Below, one piece after another: positions 16,940 to 24,923 of a stretch of 64,000 nt of DNA (positions are counted from its first letter, which is position 1; every line of letters starts with the position of its first letter). This DNA comes from Hallerella succinigenes. GTDB taxonomy: Bacteria > Fibrobacterota > Fibrobacteria > Fibrobacterales > Fibrobacteraceae. The stretch covers positions 992,001 to 1,056,000 of the forward strand of contig NZ_PGEX01000001.1 in the NCBI RefSeq assembly GCF_002797675.1, given 5' to 3'. A model generated the notes under the pieces. The model was not told the DNA's origin. It saw only the letters and a program-made list of their open reading frames with translations, and ran no database searches. Both the position numbers and the translations under genes were made by a program.

Positions 16940-17947
16940 ATGCGGTTCGAGAAAGCGGCGGAAAGCTGGTTCGGGAAGGCGGCGGCGGATTGGAAGGAAA
17001 GCACGCTGGCGAAATACAGGGCGCTTTTGCGGAAGCATCTGCTGCCGGCGTTCGGGGGCATGGAGGCGGAAGGAATCGGGACGGGGGATGTGCGGGATTT
17101 CGCGGAGCGGGAACTTTCGGGGTTCTCGATTTCCGCGCGGCGTTTCGCGCTTTCCACCCTTTCGCGGATATTGCAGTTCTCGCTTCCGGCGGAGCTGTTC
17201 CGTGCGCTGGAGTTCCCGAAGGGCGGGAAAGTCCGGAAGGGAAAAGCCGACTCGCTTTTGCCCGGGGAGCTCGCCGCGCTGATTCGGACGCTGGAAGGGA
17301 ACAAAAACCCGAAACGGGAGAACACGGCGCATGTCCTTTTGCTGATTGCTTTCACCGGGATGCGGCTCGGCGAAGCGTGCGCGCTCAGGCTTTCGGACTT
17401 CGACTTCGTGCGGAACACCGTTCGGATACACGCGACGCTGGAACGGCTTCCGGTCGAAAACGGCGGGACGGCGGACGGGGCGAAGGGAAAAGCCCGGACC
17501 GCCCTGCGGCTGCTGCCCGCGAAGACGGCGAGCGGCGAAAGGGAAATCCCCATCCCGGAAAAGCTGCTCGCCCGGCTGAAGGAAATGGCGGCGGAAAATC
17601 CTCCCGAGGCTCCCCTGACGACGCGCGACCCCCGGACACTGCAGAACCACTTCAAGAAATTCCTGAAAGCGGCGGGTATTTCGAAAGACGCCCACATCCA
17701 CACGCTGCGGCACACCTTCGCGACGCATTCGCTCTCCGCCGGGGCGGACCTGAAGACGCTCTCGGCGACCCTCGGCCACGCGAGCACCCACACGACTTTG
17801 GATTTATACGTGCACCCGACTTTCGAAAGCAAGCGCCGGCTGCAGGAGGCGTTCCGGCTATTCATCGCGCACCCGGAAAAGTGGGGCCGGCAGGGCGACG
17901 ATGCGGACTGGGGAGAGGGGTTCGGGAAGGGACGGCCCTTCGGGTGA
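16940..17947 (+). CDS. Tyrosine recombinase / integrase, GC-rich
   Basis: Site-specific DNA recombinase of the phage-integrase family. The N-terminal SAM-like DNA-binding domain covers residues 1-95; the catalytic domain has all expected residues: Arg142 (TGMRLGEA), Lys195, His254-x-x-Arg257 (HTLRHTF), His280 (LGHAST) and nucleophile Tyr290 (LDLYVH). AAAGGAGG precedes the ATG. Base composition is visibly much richer in GC than the flanking lpxA and IS genes, with long antisense open frames as a side effect, so it is probably a transferred gene. Two bases after its stop begins the first of two inverted palindromes, a natural candidate for its own recombination sites. No tRNA is adjacent. Confidence 0.9.
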   Translation: MRFEKAAESWFGKAAADWKESTLAKYRALLRKHLLPAFGGMEAEGIGTGDVRDFAERELSGFSISARRFALSTLSRILQFSLPAELFRALEFPKGGKVRKGKADSLLPGELAALIRTLEGNKNPKRENTAHVLLLIAFTGMRLGEACALRLSDFDFVRNTVRIHATLERLPVENGGTADGAKGKARTALRLLPAKTASGEREIPIPEKLLARLKEMAAENPPEAPLTTRDPRTLQNHFKKFLKAAGISKDAHIHTLRHTFATHSLSAGADLKTLSATLGHASTHTTLDLYVHPTFESKRRLQEAFRLFIAHPEKWGRQGDDADWGEGFGKGRPFG

Positions 17948-17948
17948 A

Positions 17949-17974
17949 TTTCGCAGAAGGGCTCTTCTGCGAAA
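17949..17974. repeat. Left 26-bp palindrome (inverted pair with 18211-18236)
   Basis: TTTCGCAGAAG, loop GGCT, CTTCTGCGAAA. The loop gives it an orientation opposite to the right copy. Confidence 0.85.
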
Positions 17975-18210: not shown

Positions 18211-18236
18211 TTTCGCAGAAGAGCCCTTCTGCGAAA
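18211..18236. repeat. Right 26-bp palindrome (reverse complement of the left copy)
   Basis: TTTCGCAGAAG, loop AGCC, CTTCTGCGAAA; extended to a 15-bp stem by flanking T and A runs (18207-18240). It ends directly against the ribosome site of the gene at 18252. Confidence 0.85.
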
Positions 18237-18882: not shown

Positions 18883-19929
18883 ATGGAAAAAGATGATGCA
18901 AGAAAGAATGTCCAGAGCCTTCTCGAAAAACGGAAGACAATCGTAAAAATGAAGAAGGCGGGATTCAAGAAAAGCAAGATCGCAGAGACCTGCGGCGTGA
19001 GCCGCCCCATGGTGGATGCAGTTCTATCGCTTTACGAGAAAGGCGGGATGAATGCGCTCAAGCCGAAGACAAGGGGCCGCAAGGAAAGGGAAAAAAGGCT
19101 CCTTTCCGCCAATCAAGAATCCGAGATACAGAAACTAATCCGGGACAAGCGTCCCGAACAGCTCAAGTTCAAGTTCGCCCTCTGGACCCGCGAAGCGGTT
19201 GCGGAGCTTGTCCGCAGCAAATTTGGAGTGAAGCTGGCCAAGAGAACGGTCGGCGACTACCTCAAAAGATGGAACTTCACCCCGCAAAAACCGATTGTCC
19301 GCGCGTACGAGCAAAACCCCGAAGCGGTGAAGAAGTGGCTCGAAGAGGAATACCCGAAAATAAAGGCCGATGCGGTATGCGAGAATGCGGAAATCCACTG
19401 GGCGGACGAGACCGCCATCGTGAACACGGATGTCCGTGGCCGCAGCTACGCCCCCTGCGGGCAGACCCCGGTCGTGAAGGCTCCCGGATGCAGGGAGCGC
19501 TTTTCCATGATATCGGCGGTGAACAATCGCGGGAAGTGCCACTGGATGATGATTGACGGGGCGTTCGACGCGACGAAGCTCATCGACTTCATGACGGCTC
19601 TGGTGAAGGATGTGTATGCAGACGGGAAAGGGAAGAAAGTGTTTCTCGTGATGGACAACCTGAGGGTTCACCACAGCAAGCCGGTAAAGGAATGGCTTGA
19701 AGCGAACACGGACAAGATAAGCGTATTCTACCTGCCCAGCTACAGTCCCGAGCTGAATCCTGACGAACGTCTTAATGCCGACCTGAAACACGAAATATCT
19801 TCCAACGCACCGGCTCGGACTCGCGAAAAGCTACGCTCCCATGCGGAATCCCACATGAAAATGGTGAGCAACAGCCCTGAACGAGTAATCAAGTATTTTG
19901 GCGACAAGCATGTCTCTTATGCAGCATGA
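18883..19929 (+). CDS. IS630-family transposase
   Basis: DDE transposase of the IS630/Tc1 group. N-terminal helix-turn-helix (FKKSKIAETCGVSRPMVDAV, residues 29-48) and a second HTH around residue 110, then the catalytic triad Asp175 (HWADET), Asp258 (VMDNLRVHH) and Glu295 (LNPDE) with the typical LPSYSPELNP run. Full length at 348 residues with no frameshift, so it may be active. Terminal inverted repeats could not be drawn: TTTACA occurs near both ends (about 18849 and, inverted, 19936) but the match does not extend. Confidence 0.9.
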   Translation: MEKDDARKNVQSLLEKRKTIVKMKKAGFKKSKIAETCGVSRPMVDAVLSLYEKGGMNALKPKTRGRKEREKRLLSANQESEIQKLIRDKRPEQLKFKFALWTREAVAELVRSKFGVKLAKRTVGDYLKRWNFTPQKPIVRAYEQNPEAVKKWLEEEYPKIKADAVCENAEIHWADETAIVNTDVRGRSYAPCGQTPVVKAPGCRERFSMISAVNNRGKCHWMMIDGAFDATKLIDFMTALVKDVYADGKGKKVFLVMDNLRVHHSKPVKEWLEANTDKISVFYLPSYSPELNPDERLNADLKHEISSNAPARTREKLRSHAESHMKMVSNSPERVIKYFGDKHVSYAA

Positions 19930-20059: not shown

Positions 20060-20668
20060 ATGAAACAAGCGATTTTCACGATACTTCTAATCTTCCCCCT
20101 CGTCGGCCTGGCTTCCTGCGAGAAGGATTCCTTCACGGACTCCCGGGACGGTCAGACCTACAGGACCGTCCAAATAGGGAACCAGACCTGGATGGCGGAG
20201 AACCTGAACTACCATACGGAAGGCAGTTCCTGCTACGGCGACAAGCCCGCCAACTGCCAAAAGTACGGCAGGCACTACACGTGGGAAGCGGCACTAAATG
20301 CCTGCCCGAGCGGTTGGCACCTGCCGAGCATGGCGGAGTTCGATACCTTGATTGCCACTGTCGGCGGGGTAGATGTCGCCGGTAAAGTTCTCAAGTCAAA
20401 GAGCGGCTGGAAGAGCGATGGCAACGGCACGGACGCCTACGGTTTTTCCGCTCTCCCGGCGGGCGTCCACTTCAGCGACGATGACTTCGGCGACGCTGGC
20501 TCCTTCGGAGACGCCGGCGACTACGCCAACTTTTGGAGCACCACGGAGGACAGTCGCCTCACCGCCGACTTAATGAGCTTGAAATACGGCGACGACCGCG
20601 CGTACCTGTATGACGGCATACAGCTCGGCCGTATATCCGTTCGTTGCCTCCGGGACTCCCGTTTGTGA
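20060..20668 (+). CDS. FISUMP-domain lipoprotein, copy 1
   Basis: 202-residue lipoprotein (lipobox GLASC at residue 19) carrying one Fibrobacter succinogenes major paralogous domain: DGQTYRTVQIGNQTWMAENL, CPSGWHLPSMAEF, GFSALPAG, NFWSTTE and the ending SVRCLRD. The fold is expected to be C-type-lectin-like and surface-exposed; function of the family is unknown. Its signal peptide and upstream region differ from copies 2-4, and the segment after ALPAG is longer and differs in sequence. Within that segment it is closest to copy 4, with which it shares a long identical run around LKYGDDRAYLYDG. A GAGG ribosome site precedes the ATG. Confidence 0.85.
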   Translation: MKQAIFTILLIFPLVGLASCEKDSFTDSRDGQTYRTVQIGNQTWMAENLNYHTEGSSCYGDKPANCQKYGRHYTWEAALNACPSGWHLPSMAEFDTLIATVGGVDVAGKVLKSKSGWKSDGNGTDAYGFSALPAGVHFSDDDFGDAGSFGDAGDYANFWSTTEDSRLTADLMSLKYGDDRAYLYDGIQLGRISVRCLRDSRL

Positions 20669-20701
20669 GGTCTAACGCCTGCCGCAGGCAGGCCAAAGAC
20701 C
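20669..20701. repeat. Hairpin directly after FISUMP copy 1
   Basis: GGTCT, AAC, GCCTGCC, loop GCA, GGCAGGC, CAA, AGACC: a 12-bp two-part stem starting at the base after the stop codon. No T-run follows, so it is not a standard terminator. Confidence 0.8.
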
Positions 20702-20885
20702 TTACAAACCGCCGCTCAGGGGGAGCGCAGCTCCACCACAGCGGCGCGGCGGCGATTCCCAGCTTTCAGGGCCGATCGGACGTTTCCCGGGCTAGGACTC
20801 ACTTTTCACAATCAACCCATCAATCAACCAATTACTGGATTTGCTTATCAAGGCGGAAAAAGCGCAGAAACGCTAGGAGAACCAA
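20702..20885. repeat. Conserved inter-FISUMP spacer
   Basis: Same spacer recurs after copies 2 and 3 nearly unchanged (3 differences in about 217 bases between those two, hairpin included). It holds a second hairpin (CGCCGCT ... GGAGC-GCA-GCTCC ... AGCGGCG, about 20710-20757) and ends in the AGGAGAACC ribosome site of the next gene. No open frame of note. Confidence 0.75.
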
Positions 20886-21482
20886 ATGCATATTAAACGA
20901 TTCCTCTTCACAGCCCTAGCCCTTTTCCCCCTCGTCGGCCTGGCTTCCTGCGAGAAGGATTCCTTCACGGACCCCCGGGACGGTCAGACCTACAGGACCG
21001 TCCAAATAGGGAACCAGACCTGGATGGCGGAGAACCTAAACTATAAAATGAAAGGCAGTTACTGCTACGGCGACAAGCCCGCCAACTGCCAAAAGTACGG
21101 CAGGCACTACACGTGGGAAGCGGCAATGGATGCCTGCCCGAGCGGTTGGCACCTGCCGAGCATAGCGGAGTTCGATACCTTGATTGCCGCTGTCGGCGGG
21201 CTGGGCGTCGCCGGTAAAGTTCTCAAGTCAAAGAGCTGCAGGAAGAGCGATGGCAACGGCACGGACGCCTACGGTTTTTCCGCTCTCCCGGCGGGCAACC
21301 GCTACCTCGATGGCGACTTCGACCACGCCGGCTACGACGCCCACTTTTGGAGCGCCACGGGGCGCGATAGCGTCGACGCCTACAACATGTACTTGGGCTG
21401 CGACTCCGACTACGCGTACCCGCTTTACCTCGACAAGAACTTCGGTTTGTCCGTTCGTTGCCTCCGGGACTCCCGTTTGTGA
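20886..21482 (+). CDS. FISUMP-domain lipoprotein, copy 2
   Basis: 198 residues; signal peptide MHIKRFLFTALALFPLVGL with lipobox ASC, then one FISUMP domain. The first 135 residues match copy 3 with very few differences; from the Ala of ALPAG to the Phe before GLSVRC the sequence is extensively altered. That segment consists largely of NNC codons (AAC, GAC, CAC, TAC, GGC, CTC) and supplies polar and aromatic residues. The tail GLSVRCLRDSRL is invariant. The unit repeats with an 814-base period. See the finding on localised hypervariation. Confidence 0.85.
   Translation: MHIKRFLFTALALFPLVGLASCEKDSFTDPRDGQTYRTVQIGNQTWMAENLNYKMKGSYCYGDKPANCQKYGRHYTWEAAMDACPSGWHLPSIAEFDTLIAAVGGLGVAGKVLKSKSCRKSDGNGTDAYGFSALPAGNRYLDGDFDHAGYDAHFWSATGRDSVDAYNMYLGCDSDYAYPLYLDKNFGLSVRCLRDSRL
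21291..21443 (+). other. Hypervariable segment of FISUMP copy 2
   Basis: 153 bases that differ from copy 3 at 29 positions by hand count, only one of them at a third codon position, while the flanking 39-base coding tail is identical. Confidence 0.75.
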
Positions 21483-21515
21483 GGTCTAACGCCTGCCGCA
21501 AGCAGGCCAAAGACC
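21483..21515. repeat. Hairpin directly after FISUMP copy 2
   Basis: Same element as after copy 1, with one G to A change (AGCAGGC) that breaks the loop-closing pair. Confidence 0.75.
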
Positions 21516-21699
21516 TTACAAACCGCCGCTCAGGGGGAGCGCAGCTCCACCACAGCGGCGCGGCGGCGATTCCCAGCTTTCAGGGCCGATCGGACGTTTC
21601 CCGGGCTAGGACTCACTTTTCACAATCAACCCATCAATCAACCAATTACTGGATCTGCTTATCAAGGCGAAAAAAGCGCAAAAACGCTAGGAGAACCAG

Positions 21700-22296
21700 A
21701 TGCATATTAAACGATTCCTCTTCACAGCCCTAGCCCTTTTCCCCCTCGTCGGCCTGGCTTCCTGCGAGAAGGATTCCTTCACGGACTCCCGGGACGGTCA
21801 GACCTACAGGACCGTCCAAATAGGGAACCAGACCTGGATGGCGGAGAACCTGAACTATAAAATGAAAGGCAGTTACTGCTACGGCGACAAGCCCGCCAAC
21901 TGCCAAAAGTACGGCAGGCACTATACGTGGGAAGCGGCAATGGATGCCTGCCCGAGCGGTTGGCACCTGCCGAGCATGGCGGAGTTCGATACCTTGATTG
22001 CCGCTGTCGGCGGGCTGGGCGTCGCCGGTAAAGTTCTCAAGTCAAAGAGCGGCTGGAAGAGCGATGGCAACGGCACGGACGCCTACGGTTTTTCCGCTCT
22101 CCCGGAGGGCTACCGCTACCCCGATGGCGACTTCGGCCTCGCCGGCTACTACGCCAACTTTTGGAGCGCCACGGAGTACAATAGCGGCAACGCCTACAGG
22201 ATGAGCATGGACTACTTCAGCGACTACGCGTACCCGAATTACCTCGACAAGCCCCTCGGTTTGTCCGTTCGTTGCCTCCGGGACTCCCGTTTGTGA
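21700..22296 (+). CDS. FISUMP-domain lipoprotein, copy 3
   Basis: 198 residues, same signal peptide and lipobox as copy 2 and the same FISUMP landmarks. Outside the variable segment it differs from copy 2 at about six bases in the 5' two thirds of the gene. The variable stretch replaces, for example, AAC by TAC, CAC by AAC, GAT by AAT, CTT by AAT and AAC by CCC, keeping the third base. Ribosome site AGGAGAACC. Same spacer on both sides, so the copies arose by tandem duplication of an 814-base unit and then diverged in one place only. Confidence 0.85.
   Translation: MHIKRFLFTALALFPLVGLASCEKDSFTDSRDGQTYRTVQIGNQTWMAENLNYKMKGSYCYGDKPANCQKYGRHYTWEAAMDACPSGWHLPSMAEFDTLIAAVGGLGVAGKVLKSKSGWKSDGNGTDAYGFSALPEGYRYPDGDFGLAGYYANFWSATEYNSGNAYRMSMDYFSDYAYPNYLDKPLGLSVRCLRDSRL
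22105..22257 (+). other. Hypervariable segment of FISUMP copy 3
   Basis: Counterpart of 21291-21443, same length, rich in AAC/AAT/TAC/AGC codons; of the 29 differences to copy 2, 21 have an adenine in one copy. Confidence 0.75.
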
Positions 22297-22329
22297 GGTC
22301 TAACGCCTGCCGCAGGCAGGCCAAAGACC
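22297..22329. repeat. Hairpin directly after FISUMP copy 3
   Basis: Perfect copy of the element at 20669-20701, beginning at the base after the stop codon. Confidence 0.8.
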
Positions 22330-22513
22330 TTACAAACCGCCGCTCAGGGGGAGCGCAGCTCCACCACAGCGGCGCGGCGGCGATTCCCAGCTTTCAGGGC
22401 CGATCGGACGTTTCCCGGGCTAGGACTCACTTTTCACAATCAACCCATCAATCAACCAATTACTGGATCTGCTTATCAAGGCGAAAAAAGCGCAGAAACG
22501 CTAGGAGAACCAA

Positions 22514-23113
22514 ATGCATATTAAACGATTCCTCTTCACAGCCCTAGCCCTTTTCCCCCTCGTCGGCCTGGCTTCCTGCGAGAAGGATTCCTTCACGGAC
22601 CCCCGGGACGGTCAGACCTACAGGACCGTCCAAATAGGGAACCAGACCTGGATGGCGGAGAACCTGAACTACCATACGGAAGGCAGTTCCTGCTACGGCG
22701 ACAAGCCCGCCAACTGCCAAAAGTACGGCAGGCACTACACGTGGGAAGCGGCAATGGATGCCTGCCCGAGCGGTTGGCACCTGCCGAGCATGGCGGAGTT
22801 CGATACCTTGATTGCCACTGTCGGCGGGCTGGGCGTCGCCGGTAAAGTTCTCAAGTCAAAGAGCGGCTGGAAGAGCGATGGCAACGGCACGGACGCTTAC
22901 GGTTTTTCCGCTCTCCCGGCGGGCTTCCACGTCAGCGACGCTGGCTACTTCGGCGACGCCGGCGACTACGCCAACTTTTGGAGCACCACGGAGGACTGGC
23001 GCCTCGCCGCCGACTTCATGAGCTTGAAATACGGCGACGACCGCGCGTACCTGTATGACGGCGCGAAGAACTTCGGTTTGTCCGTTCGTTGCCTCCGGGA
23101 CTCCCGTTTGTGA
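22514..23113 (+). CDS. FISUMP-domain lipoprotein, copy 4
   Basis: 199 residues. The signal peptide and first part are those of copies 2 and 3, but the NYHTEGSSCYG stretch matches copy 1, as does much of the variable segment (FWSTTED, LKYGDDRAYLYDG). The tail is again GLSVRCLRDSRL. The mosaic suggests gene conversion or unequal exchange between copies in addition to point diversification. Last intact copy; its hairpin follows, after which the spacer changes to sequence belonging to the 3' side of the nuclease gene on the other strand. Confidence 0.85.
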   Translation: MHIKRFLFTALALFPLVGLASCEKDSFTDPRDGQTYRTVQIGNQTWMAENLNYHTEGSSCYGDKPANCQKYGRHYTWEAAMDACPSGWHLPSMAEFDTLIATVGGLGVAGKVLKSKSGWKSDGNGTDAYGFSALPAGFHVSDAGYFGDAGDYANFWSTTEDWRLAADFMSLKYGDDRAYLYDGAKNFGLSVRCLRDSRL

Positions 23114-23146
23114 GGTCTAAAGCCTGCCGCAGGCAGGCCAAAGACT
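23114..23146. repeat. Hairpin directly after FISUMP copy 4
   Basis: Same element with A in place of C in the first bulge and a terminal G-T pair. Confidence 0.75.
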
Positions 23147-23351
23147 TTACAAACCGCCGCTCAGGGGGAGCGCAGCTCCATCACAGCGGCGCGGCGGCGA
23201 TTCCGGCAAGCCCCAGCCCACAGGGCGGGGGCTTCAATGTTTCATCCTATCCATCAAACGCGAAAATAAGCAAAGCATCTACTTTCTTTGCGACTGCAGG
23301 TACTAGCAGGTTTGGGGTGTTTCCGCAAGTGGCTGTCGTTAGAAACGGAAA

Positions 23352-24344
23352 TTACAGCTTGCGGATTTCTTCCTCGGAAAGGCCGGTTTGCCGAGCGATT
23401 AGTTCCAAGGATATGCCGGCATCGCGGAAACCTTTCGCCATTTCCCTCCGCTCCCTTTCCATGCCGATCCCGATGCCTTCGTCGCGACCCTTTTCGAAAC
23501 CAAAGTCAACCCCCTCCTCGTACTTCGCGGCAAGGGCCTTCTCTTCGGCTTCGGCGATGGTTTCGTAACCGTACGCTTCGGATGTCTTGACAAAGTCCAT
23601 TTGGAATTCCTCTTTCTCTTCCTGCGGGAGGAGTTTCTTCAAATATAGAAATGTCTGCGTGAGGAAACTCTCCGCTTCGTCCCGGGGCAGTTCCTTCAGC
23701 ATCTTCACGGCGGTGCGTAGGTGGCTCTGCATCTTTTCGCCATGGAAGACGTACTTCATGGCGACCAAAGCCAGCGCGATTTTCGGGGAGATGTCCCGGA
23801 TTTCGTTTGTGCTGAAACTGTCGCCGATGTCCACCAGCTCGAGGACGAACGGCAGGCCGATGCGGTGGTAGTATGCCGGGTAGTCCGGGAACATGGTTCT
23901 CACGTCCAGGTTCCAGCGTTCCCTGCCGTTATAGAAGACGATGGCGACGGTGGGAATGTTCTTTTGCGTCTTGACCATGATGTGGTACCAGTACTTGACG
24001 AGCTGCGAGACGACATTCGGGTCCTTGGAGGACTTGTGCTCCTCCAGAATGCCGACGAGGAGGTCGGCGGAACGCTTCGCCTTTTCGCCTTCGTTTCCGC
24101 CTGTATTTTCGATTTCTTCCCCGGCGATTCTGACAGTGAACGCCAGATCCGCGTAGCCGAAGGTTTCCGTGTCGCTGAAGGATTCGGAGATTTCGGTGAG
24201 GGTCGATAGGTCGACGGTTTTCAGGAACTCGGCGAGGCTCCTGTTGTTTTTGGCGACAAGGCGCAAAAGTTCCGCGGCACGGTCCGGTGCCTTGAAGACG
24301 GAGCGGAAGTAGGAGTCATGCGGGGTGCGGCTGGTTTCGGTCAT
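23352..24344 (-). CDS. Rpn-family recombination-promoting nuclease / putative transposase (PD-(D/E)XK)
   Basis: 330 residues. Rpn-type proteins are PD-(D/E)XK nucleases that stimulate RecA-independent recombination. Visible landmarks are [10 protein letters not shown] (residues 9-18), ADLAFTV, the core [12 protein letters not shown] (catalytic E-x-K region) followed by LVKYWYHIM, then [11 protein letters not shown] charged C-terminal tail ends in a degenerate repeat ([20 protein letters not shown]) and SEEEIRKL. The ATG at 24344 has AGAGGA upstream. The 3' end of this gene occurs a second time at 24693-24915, fused with a FISUMP 3' end. Confidence 0.85.
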
Positions 24345-24466
24345 GATGTTCCTCTTGGATACGGACTTTCCCCATGAATGTCCTATTCCTTTAAACGCTC
24401 GAACGGGAAATTTTTCCACCTCGATTCGTGTAAAATATTGTTTGCAGGGGAGATGTTTTTTTTCGT

Positions 24467-24540
24467 TGCCTCCGGAACTCCCGTTTGTGAGGTCTAAAGC
24501 CTGCCGCAGGCAGGCCAAAGACCTTACAAACCGCCGCTCA
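24467..24540 (+). pseudogene. FISUMP 3'-end relic with hairpin
   Basis: Last codons RCLR(N)SRL, stop, and the post-stop hairpin (24491-24523) of a fifth FISUMP copy, without any gene body; preceded by a T-run. It is the left end of a duplicated block that also carries the nuclease 3' end. Confidence 0.8.
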
Positions 24541-24692
24541 GGGGGAGCGCAGCCCCAGCCCACAGGGCGGGGCTTCAATGTTTCATCCTATCCATCAAAC
24601 GCGAAAATAAGCAAAGCATCTACTTTCTTTGCGACTGCAGGTACTAGCAGGTTTGGGGTGTTTCCGGCGGAGGCTTTCGTTCGAAACAGAAA

Positions 24693-24915
24693 TTACAGTT
24701 TGCGGATTTCTTCCTCGGAAAGGCCGGTTTGCCGAGCAATTAGTTCCAAGGATATGCCGGCATCGCGGAAACCTTTCGCCATTTCCCTCCGCTCCCTTTC
24801 CATGCCGATCCCGATCCCCTCCTCGTACTTCGCGGCAAGGGCCTTCTCTTCGGCTTCGGCGATGGTTTCGTAACCGTACGCTTCGGATGTCTTGACAAAG
24901 TCCATTTGGAATTCC
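24693..24915 (-). pseudogene. Truncated duplicate of the Rpn nuclease 3' end
   Basis: About 70 codons matching the C-terminal part of the gene at 23352-24344 ([20 protein letters not shown] to SEEEIRKL), with an internal deletion of about eleven codons in the charged repeat. No upstream part or start region. Together with 24467-24540 it is a duplicate of about 23087-23606. It abuts the 3' end of the CCA-adding enzyme gene. Confidence 0.85.
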
Positions 24916-24923
24916 TCTTAAAT

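Follow-up and report, generated by a model that had tools for sequence, protein, structure and literature searches.

The window (the whole stretch of Hallerella succinigenes DNA that was analysed, 64,000 nucleotides) is part of a complete, single-contig genome of 3.13 Mb and carries four FISUMP genes, which encode surface proteins, in tandem (c1 to c4; Table 1). The name FISUMP is short for 'Fibrobacter succinogenes major paralogous domain'; this large family, which has no assigned function, has 47 matches in the whole genome. The units of the array follow one another at a spacing of 814-817 bp across the 3' halves and tails, where they are near-identical. Codons ~138-194 are strongly divergent among the copies and lie between a conserved start and an invariant 3' end, TTCGTTGCCTCCGGGACTCCC, which is identical in c1-c4 and is followed by two hairpins with GCA triloops. 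Between an upstream recombinase region and the array lies an IS630-family transposase gene (18883-19929).

Table 1. Positions in the window of the FISUMP array, its hairpins and the neighbouring relic
Feature	Position	Strand	Remarks
FISUMP gene copy 1 (c1)	20060..20668	+	variable segment ~20465-20635
Invariant 3' end of c1, IMH-like, TTCGTTGCCTCCGGGACTCCC	20640..20660	+	repeated at 21454, 22268, 23085
Hairpin 1, c1	20661..20709	+	13 bp including one G-T, 3x3 internal loop, 7 bp, GCA triloop
Hairpin 2, c1	20710..20746	+	GCA triloop, C-G closing pair
FISUMP gene copy 2 (c2)	20886..21482	+	variable segment ~21297-21449
Hairpin 1, c2	21475..21523	+	G->A at 21501 opens the loop-closing pair
Hairpin 2, c2	21524..21560	+	
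FISUMP gene copy 3 (c3)	21700..22296	+	variable segment ~22111-22263
Hairpin 1, c3	22289..22337	+	
Hairpin 2, c3	22338..22374	+	
FISUMP gene copy 4 (c4)	22514..23113	+	variable segment ~22925-23080
Hairpin 1, c4	23106..23154	+	C->T at 23146 gives a G.T wobble
Hairpin 2, c4	23155..23191	+	
Putative Rpn-type nuclease gene	23352-24344	-	3' part duplicated with FISUMP tail
Relic: invariant 3' end and hairpin 1 (24483-24531)	24462..24573	+	no FISUMP gene; hairpin 2 damaged

The relic, whose version of the invariant 3' end (from 24462) has one change relative to c1-c4, is the product of a second segmental duplication. The duplicated block (23085-23614 and 24462-24919) consists of the FISUMP tail and the 3' part of the putative Rpn-type nuclease gene, and the left border of the tail relic (24462 on) lies near the VR/IMH junction. 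A similar FISUMP-tail relic was observed in F. intestinalis (L075:11900-11975), reversed and beside an unrelated ORF (L075:10300-11883); it again begins near TTCGTTG. Since the copies arose by duplication, c1-c4 and the relic amount to one independent observation, not five. In F. intestinalis, an ankyrin-repeat-like gene lies ahead of a FISUMP gene, and its 3' end (L075:7322-7398) is similar to the leader of c2-c4 (20815-20900, with the same stretch ahead of c3 and c4); thus, the repeat unit seems to contain a fusion junction.

The sequence-only reading had placed a strong hairpin behind each of the four genes and at the relic, starting at the base after the stop codon and lacking a T-run. The core GCCTGCC-GCA-GGCAGGC is present at all five sites (chance expectation in the window, 0.02 matches), and the 33-mers that were proposed for folding fold at -16.9 to -19.5 kcal/mol, with no shuffle equally good. 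However, the stretch concerned (20669-20701 in c1) is only the inner part of hairpin 1. The true stem (GTTTGTGAGGTCT / AGACCTTACAAAC, 20661-20709) begins five bases before the stop codon and takes in this codon and five coding bases, so that the TGA of c1 (20666-20668) lies within the left arm and the zero distance does not hold. The predicted 61-nt fold has an energy of -33.4 kcal/mol. The single stem changes noted earlier in two copies were recovered in c2 (21501) and c4 (23146), but the account was incomplete for c4, which has a further change in hairpin 1, an internal-loop C->A at 23121 that the relic shares. No T-run follows the hairpins in any of the four copies, as had been claimed, and the terminator scan gave no terminator-like site there; a search of Rfam gave no match at E<=1. 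Within the genome, the array and the relic are the only places with the exact 15-base core, and matches over the length were found at the five tails only. A dispersed palindrome of the REP or MITE kind was ruled out, the core and tail being confined to the array and the relic with no dispersed copies.

Hairpins at such positions are known from diversity-generating retroelements (DGRs). In Bordetella phage BPP-1, efficient homing depends on a hairpin or cruciform after the variable repeat (VR), with a GRNA loop, a free choice of stem sequence and a flexible distance from the VR (Guo et al. 2011, PMC3240598). The tails of the array resemble the BPP-1 target site after the mtd VR in having an invariant 3' end and then a GC-rich inverted repeat by the stop codon, and also in the free stem sequence and the short, purine-rich loop. 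However, the BPP-1 site has a single stem of 8 bp and a GRNA loop of 4 nt, whereas the array has two longer hairpins with GCA triloops, and the stem of hairpin 1 passes through the stop codon; furthermore, the reverse transcriptase (RT), template repeat (TR) and Avd of BPP-1 lie alongside, whereas none was detected in the genome of the array. The hairpins of the archaeal DUSEL4 DGRs have GRA triloops (Paul et al. 2015, PMC4372165). They are thus similar in having a GNA-type triloop (GRA there, GCA here) and in overlapping the target gene, although these archaeal DGRs have an RT, the hairpin lies inside the target gene, and the target families are others. Another close system is the DGR locus L110 of Fibrobacter intestinalis ATCC 43854, from the same genus, with the same target family and the same tail organisation of a stop-spanning stem and a GNA-loop hairpin. 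The adenines of its template match the variable sites of the window. It differs in the presence of RT, TR and an Avd-like gene, in having two local targets versus four, and in the sequences of the hairpins.

We counted, with DNA energy parameters, hairpins of at least 5 bp with a C-G-closed GNA or GNNA loop no more than 110 nt from the stop codon. Such a hairpin follows 18 of the 21 TR-validated FISUMP targets and all four window copies. The fair comparison for this loop class is with control gene ends, other FISUMP genes and TR ends, where it was found at 10/305 (5/144 in this genome and 5/161 in relatives), 6/37 and 1/22, respectively. Two of the hairpin-bearing other FISUMP genes (L075:8126 and L077:2259) resemble remote targets. 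The correlation of hairpin and variable segment that had been proposed for checking was therefore observed (18/21 versus 6/37), and hairpins of this kind after unrelated genes, about which the same proposal asked, are rare. When tails sharing sequence were merged, 12 of 15 independent clusters had the hairpin (p=1e-13), a value to be read, like the other p-values for the loop class, as descriptive, since the class was noticed first in these tails and the count was made for the most part on the tails themselves. An earlier count with a stricter stem finder, which pooled validated targets and other FISUMP genes, gave 16/39 versus 6/201 (p=4e-10).

The stem sequences differ between the DGR-target loci, and a stop codon within the left arm, as in the window, was also found in L110, L111, L113 and L114. 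At L075:8837 of F. intestinalis, the right arm of hairpin 1 is not conserved. A hairpin followed by a T-run was found at 1/21 targets, 0/4 window copies, ~15% of ordinary genes and 8/22 TR ends; the TR 3' ends with a terminator-type T-run hairpin, unlike the targets, are those of L118, L119, L123, L125, L163, L164, L171 and L172. As for the features usual in DGR targets, the array thus has a hairpin downstream of the VR with a short G..A loop, GCA being of the GNA type, not the GRNA of BPP-1.

The variation itself follows the adenines of a template. Between c2 and c3, the differences at the three codon positions number 13/14/1 in the variable segment (55 codons) and 3/0/3 upstream (104 codons), with none in the tail; the former pattern is that which would be expected from adenine-directed mutation of AAY codons. 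When the TR of F. intestinalis, that is, of a same-genus relative and not of H. succinigenes itself, was used as the template, the sites variable among c1-c4 comprised 43/67 adenines versus 22/178 other sites (p=4e-15). Restriction to codon positions 1 and 2, which takes out the effect of codon position, gave 23/58 TR adenines versus 5/74 others for c2 versus c3 (p=4e-6), and position 3 was retained in 21 of the 22 codons that differ in this pair. The adenine bias was weaker between c1 and c4 (p=5e-4), and third positions differ between the c1/c4 pair and the c2/c3 pair. TR adenines also mark the protein loops that are freest to vary, and selection may therefore contribute; however, the static third positions suggest that it is not the whole explanation of the adenine match. 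The invariant 3' end resembles the ends of the TRs in L110 and L076; its role would be that of an IMH.

The AlphaFold2 model of c3 (alignment of 36 relatives) has a mean pLDDT of 91. Foldseek alone gave weak matches to C-type lectins only, and a PDB sequence search with the FISUMP alignment gave no match. In a second structural look, the best match was Treponema denticola variable protein 1 (TvpA, 2y3c; Z 10.6, 154 residues), and TaqVP was among the matches with a Z of 7.9, at which matches can be unspecific. Because the Foldseek matches were weak, the fold call relies on the second look together with the known relation of Fib_succ_major to DUF1566 (PMC4159848). By the predicted model, then, the array genes have the C-type-lectin-like fold that is usual, though not universal, among DGR targets. 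Fib_succ_major was already listed among DGR target domains, for targets from the human microbiome (PMC4159848), and the array shares with TvpA and these targets the lectin-like fold and the C-terminal variable repeat.

FISUMP-targeting DGRs are present in relatives. RVT_1 was found in 28 of the 60 genomes searched, and the DGR RT of F. intestinalis matched in 45 of 167 Fibrobacterota genomes (E<=0.001). The DGR RT of relatives contains the IGxxxSQ motif, which is typical of DGR RTs. A scan for repeat pairs with mismatches at adenines found RT-linked pairs of TR and FISUMP VR with adenine-specific mismatches at many loci of relatives, including the same genus (L110, with two DGR targets); L160 has three targets in a row. 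In one genome (G022), an RT remnant is flanked on one side by an AAC-rich template repeat and on the other by a FISUMP gene carrying the matching variable repeat, and the gene of ~250 residues beside the RT has a weak, below-cut-off match to Avd at residues 127-221. The TR-adjacent gene at L110:5263-6051 and L076:1820-2569 is likewise ~250 residues long, with a weakly Avd-like C-terminal half; its N-terminal half gave no match to a Pfam or NCBIfam family. Another member of the Fibrobacteraceae (G021) has at least three separate DGRs (L113, L114 and L115), with different FISUMP templates, on different contigs.

A further set of 80 FISUMP loci and 5 viral loci has the loop class in 12/101 tails. 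The repeat scan gave a TR in none of them, so that they are unusable as validated targets, and the scan overlooked at least one TR: L276 has a DGR RT, and adenines account for 13/15 mismatches of its VR/TR pair. This contig of a viral collection (IMGVR_UViG_2728369487_000001) thus carries a FISUMP DGR with RT, TR, VR and GAA-loop hairpins, and some such systems may therefore travel on prophages.

Synteny between the array and the DGR locus of F. intestinalis is limited to the recombinase and the FISUMP genes; as the flanks are not in common, synteny gives no support to a loss from a single ancestral locus. In the window, a tyrosine recombinase is followed by two perfect palindromes (TTCGCAGAAG..CTTCTGCGAA) 262 bp apart (16940-17974, 18211-18236), the only occurrence of this recombinase-linked palindrome in the H. 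succinigenes genome; the F. intestinalis locus (L110:9-1253) has a recombinase 58% identical, with the same palindromes at the same spacing.

The machinery was sought in the genome of the array. The RVT_1 profile search found no reverse transcriptase, and the DGR RT of F. intestinalis as a query gave no match at E<=0.001; that an RT was merely missed was rejected, this enzyme having been sought both by profile and by protein. The search of the genome with the variable segment of c3 for a TR gave, at significant E-values, only FISUMP genes and the tail relic. The Avd-like protein of a relative gave no match at E<=10, in a search that had no positive-control genome and for accessory genes that vary between DGRs. 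Outside the array, the genome has no donor for the variable segments above ~71% identity, and a plasmid search gave distant FISUMP genes only. RT and TR, which a complete DGR has, were thus not found in this genome. Since no RT, TR or Avd-like gene was detectable, present activity is not supported and, judged from sequence comparison, the array looks like a stranded (orphaned) or remotely served (trans-served) DGR target array.

Comparison demonstrated adenine-matched variation, the DGR-associated loop class, a lectin-like fold and FISUMP-targeting DGRs in relatives. We propose, with a probability of about 0.85, that the hairpins are the 3' target-recognition element (a DNA hairpin or cruciform) of a DGR and that each FISUMP gene is a target. 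The sequence-only reading had also preferred a DGR target-site hairpin to a terminator, and the adenine signature, the loop class at 18/21 validated targets and the missing T-run agree with it. In the mechanism that we envisage, a variable repeat in a C-type-lectin-like domain would lead into the invariant IMH-type end (TTCGTTGCCTCCGGGACTCCC) and then into two GNA-loop hairpins, which would mark the point, at the IMH-like end, where template-derived cDNA is installed. The DNA hairpins, as predicted by folding, may extrude and recruit the homing complex. The variation may have been made by a DGR whose RT, TR and Avd were later lost, or by one that acts from elements outside this assembly. Tandem duplication of the cassette, hairpins included, produced the array.

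That the hairpin is instead an ordinary transcription terminator or a stabiliser of the mRNA 3' end of the FISUMP genes would suit its place at the gene end and its great stability, and it would form in RNA. Guo et al. (PMC3240598) discussed terminator-like stem-loops as DGR targets, and both roles may coexist. However, there is no T-run in any copy and the scan gave no terminator-like match; the loop class is rare at other gene ends and missing from most other FISUMP genes, and it is the TR ends (8/22) that use T-run hairpins instead. We therefore regard this explanation as unlikely. Gene conversion or diversifying selection among FISUMP paralogues, with the hairpins as passengers of duplication or drivers of cruciform recombination, seems to us still a little less probable. 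The hairpins were certainly copied through duplication, and the copies are mosaic, since c1/c4 and c2/c3 pair over the gene whereas the end of c4 is like that of c2. However, the changes fall on TR adenines also when codon positions 1 and 2 are taken alone, third positions are nearly unchanged between c2 and c3, no donor above the identity given was found, and the hairpin class is common to unrelated DGR target tails.

A tyrosine recombinase upstream (16940-17947) and tandem genes with a repeated 3' element could also suggest a cassette array served by this enzyme, with the hairpins as attC-like recombination sites, and by eye the GTCTAAC of the left arm resembles an attC core. However, the right arm is without a matching GTTRRRY core, the left arm reads GTCTAAA in the relic and c4, the score of the recombinase is 73 bits versus an integron-integrase cut-off of 265, and the copies diverge at template adenines within the gene, not at cassette borders; this explanation is very improbable.

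Target-site hairpins as a kind of element are already known. In the literature searched, an RT-less four-gene array with doubled GCA-loop hairpins appears to be undescribed, as does a loop class that marks FISUMP DGR targets in bacteria; the reports on TvpA and Fib_succ_major cover neither an RT-less array in the Fibrobacteraceae nor the loop class of the hairpins. As a simple marker, the C-G-closed GNA or GNNA loop distinguishes DGR targets from terminators and from the remaining FISUMP genes; thus, DGR targets might be recognisable even without RT and template. Furthermore, loops of the GCGNAGC kind are unusually stable DNA mini-hairpins, and the loop class opens a direct test of target hairpins acting as DNA.

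A more speculative and rather unlikely extension is that the 3' cassette, that is, the IMH-like end with its two GNA-loop hairpins, is a portable docking tag copied with or without its gene. If so, the tag would turn the FISUMP gene upstream of it into a substrate of DGR machinery that comes in trans, such as from a prophage or a different strain, and a genome without RT or template would keep a standing array of programmable receptor genes. For the family, a subset of FISUMP proteins being DGR targets across the Fibrobacterota offers a working explanation for part of it, as rapidly diversified surface binders.
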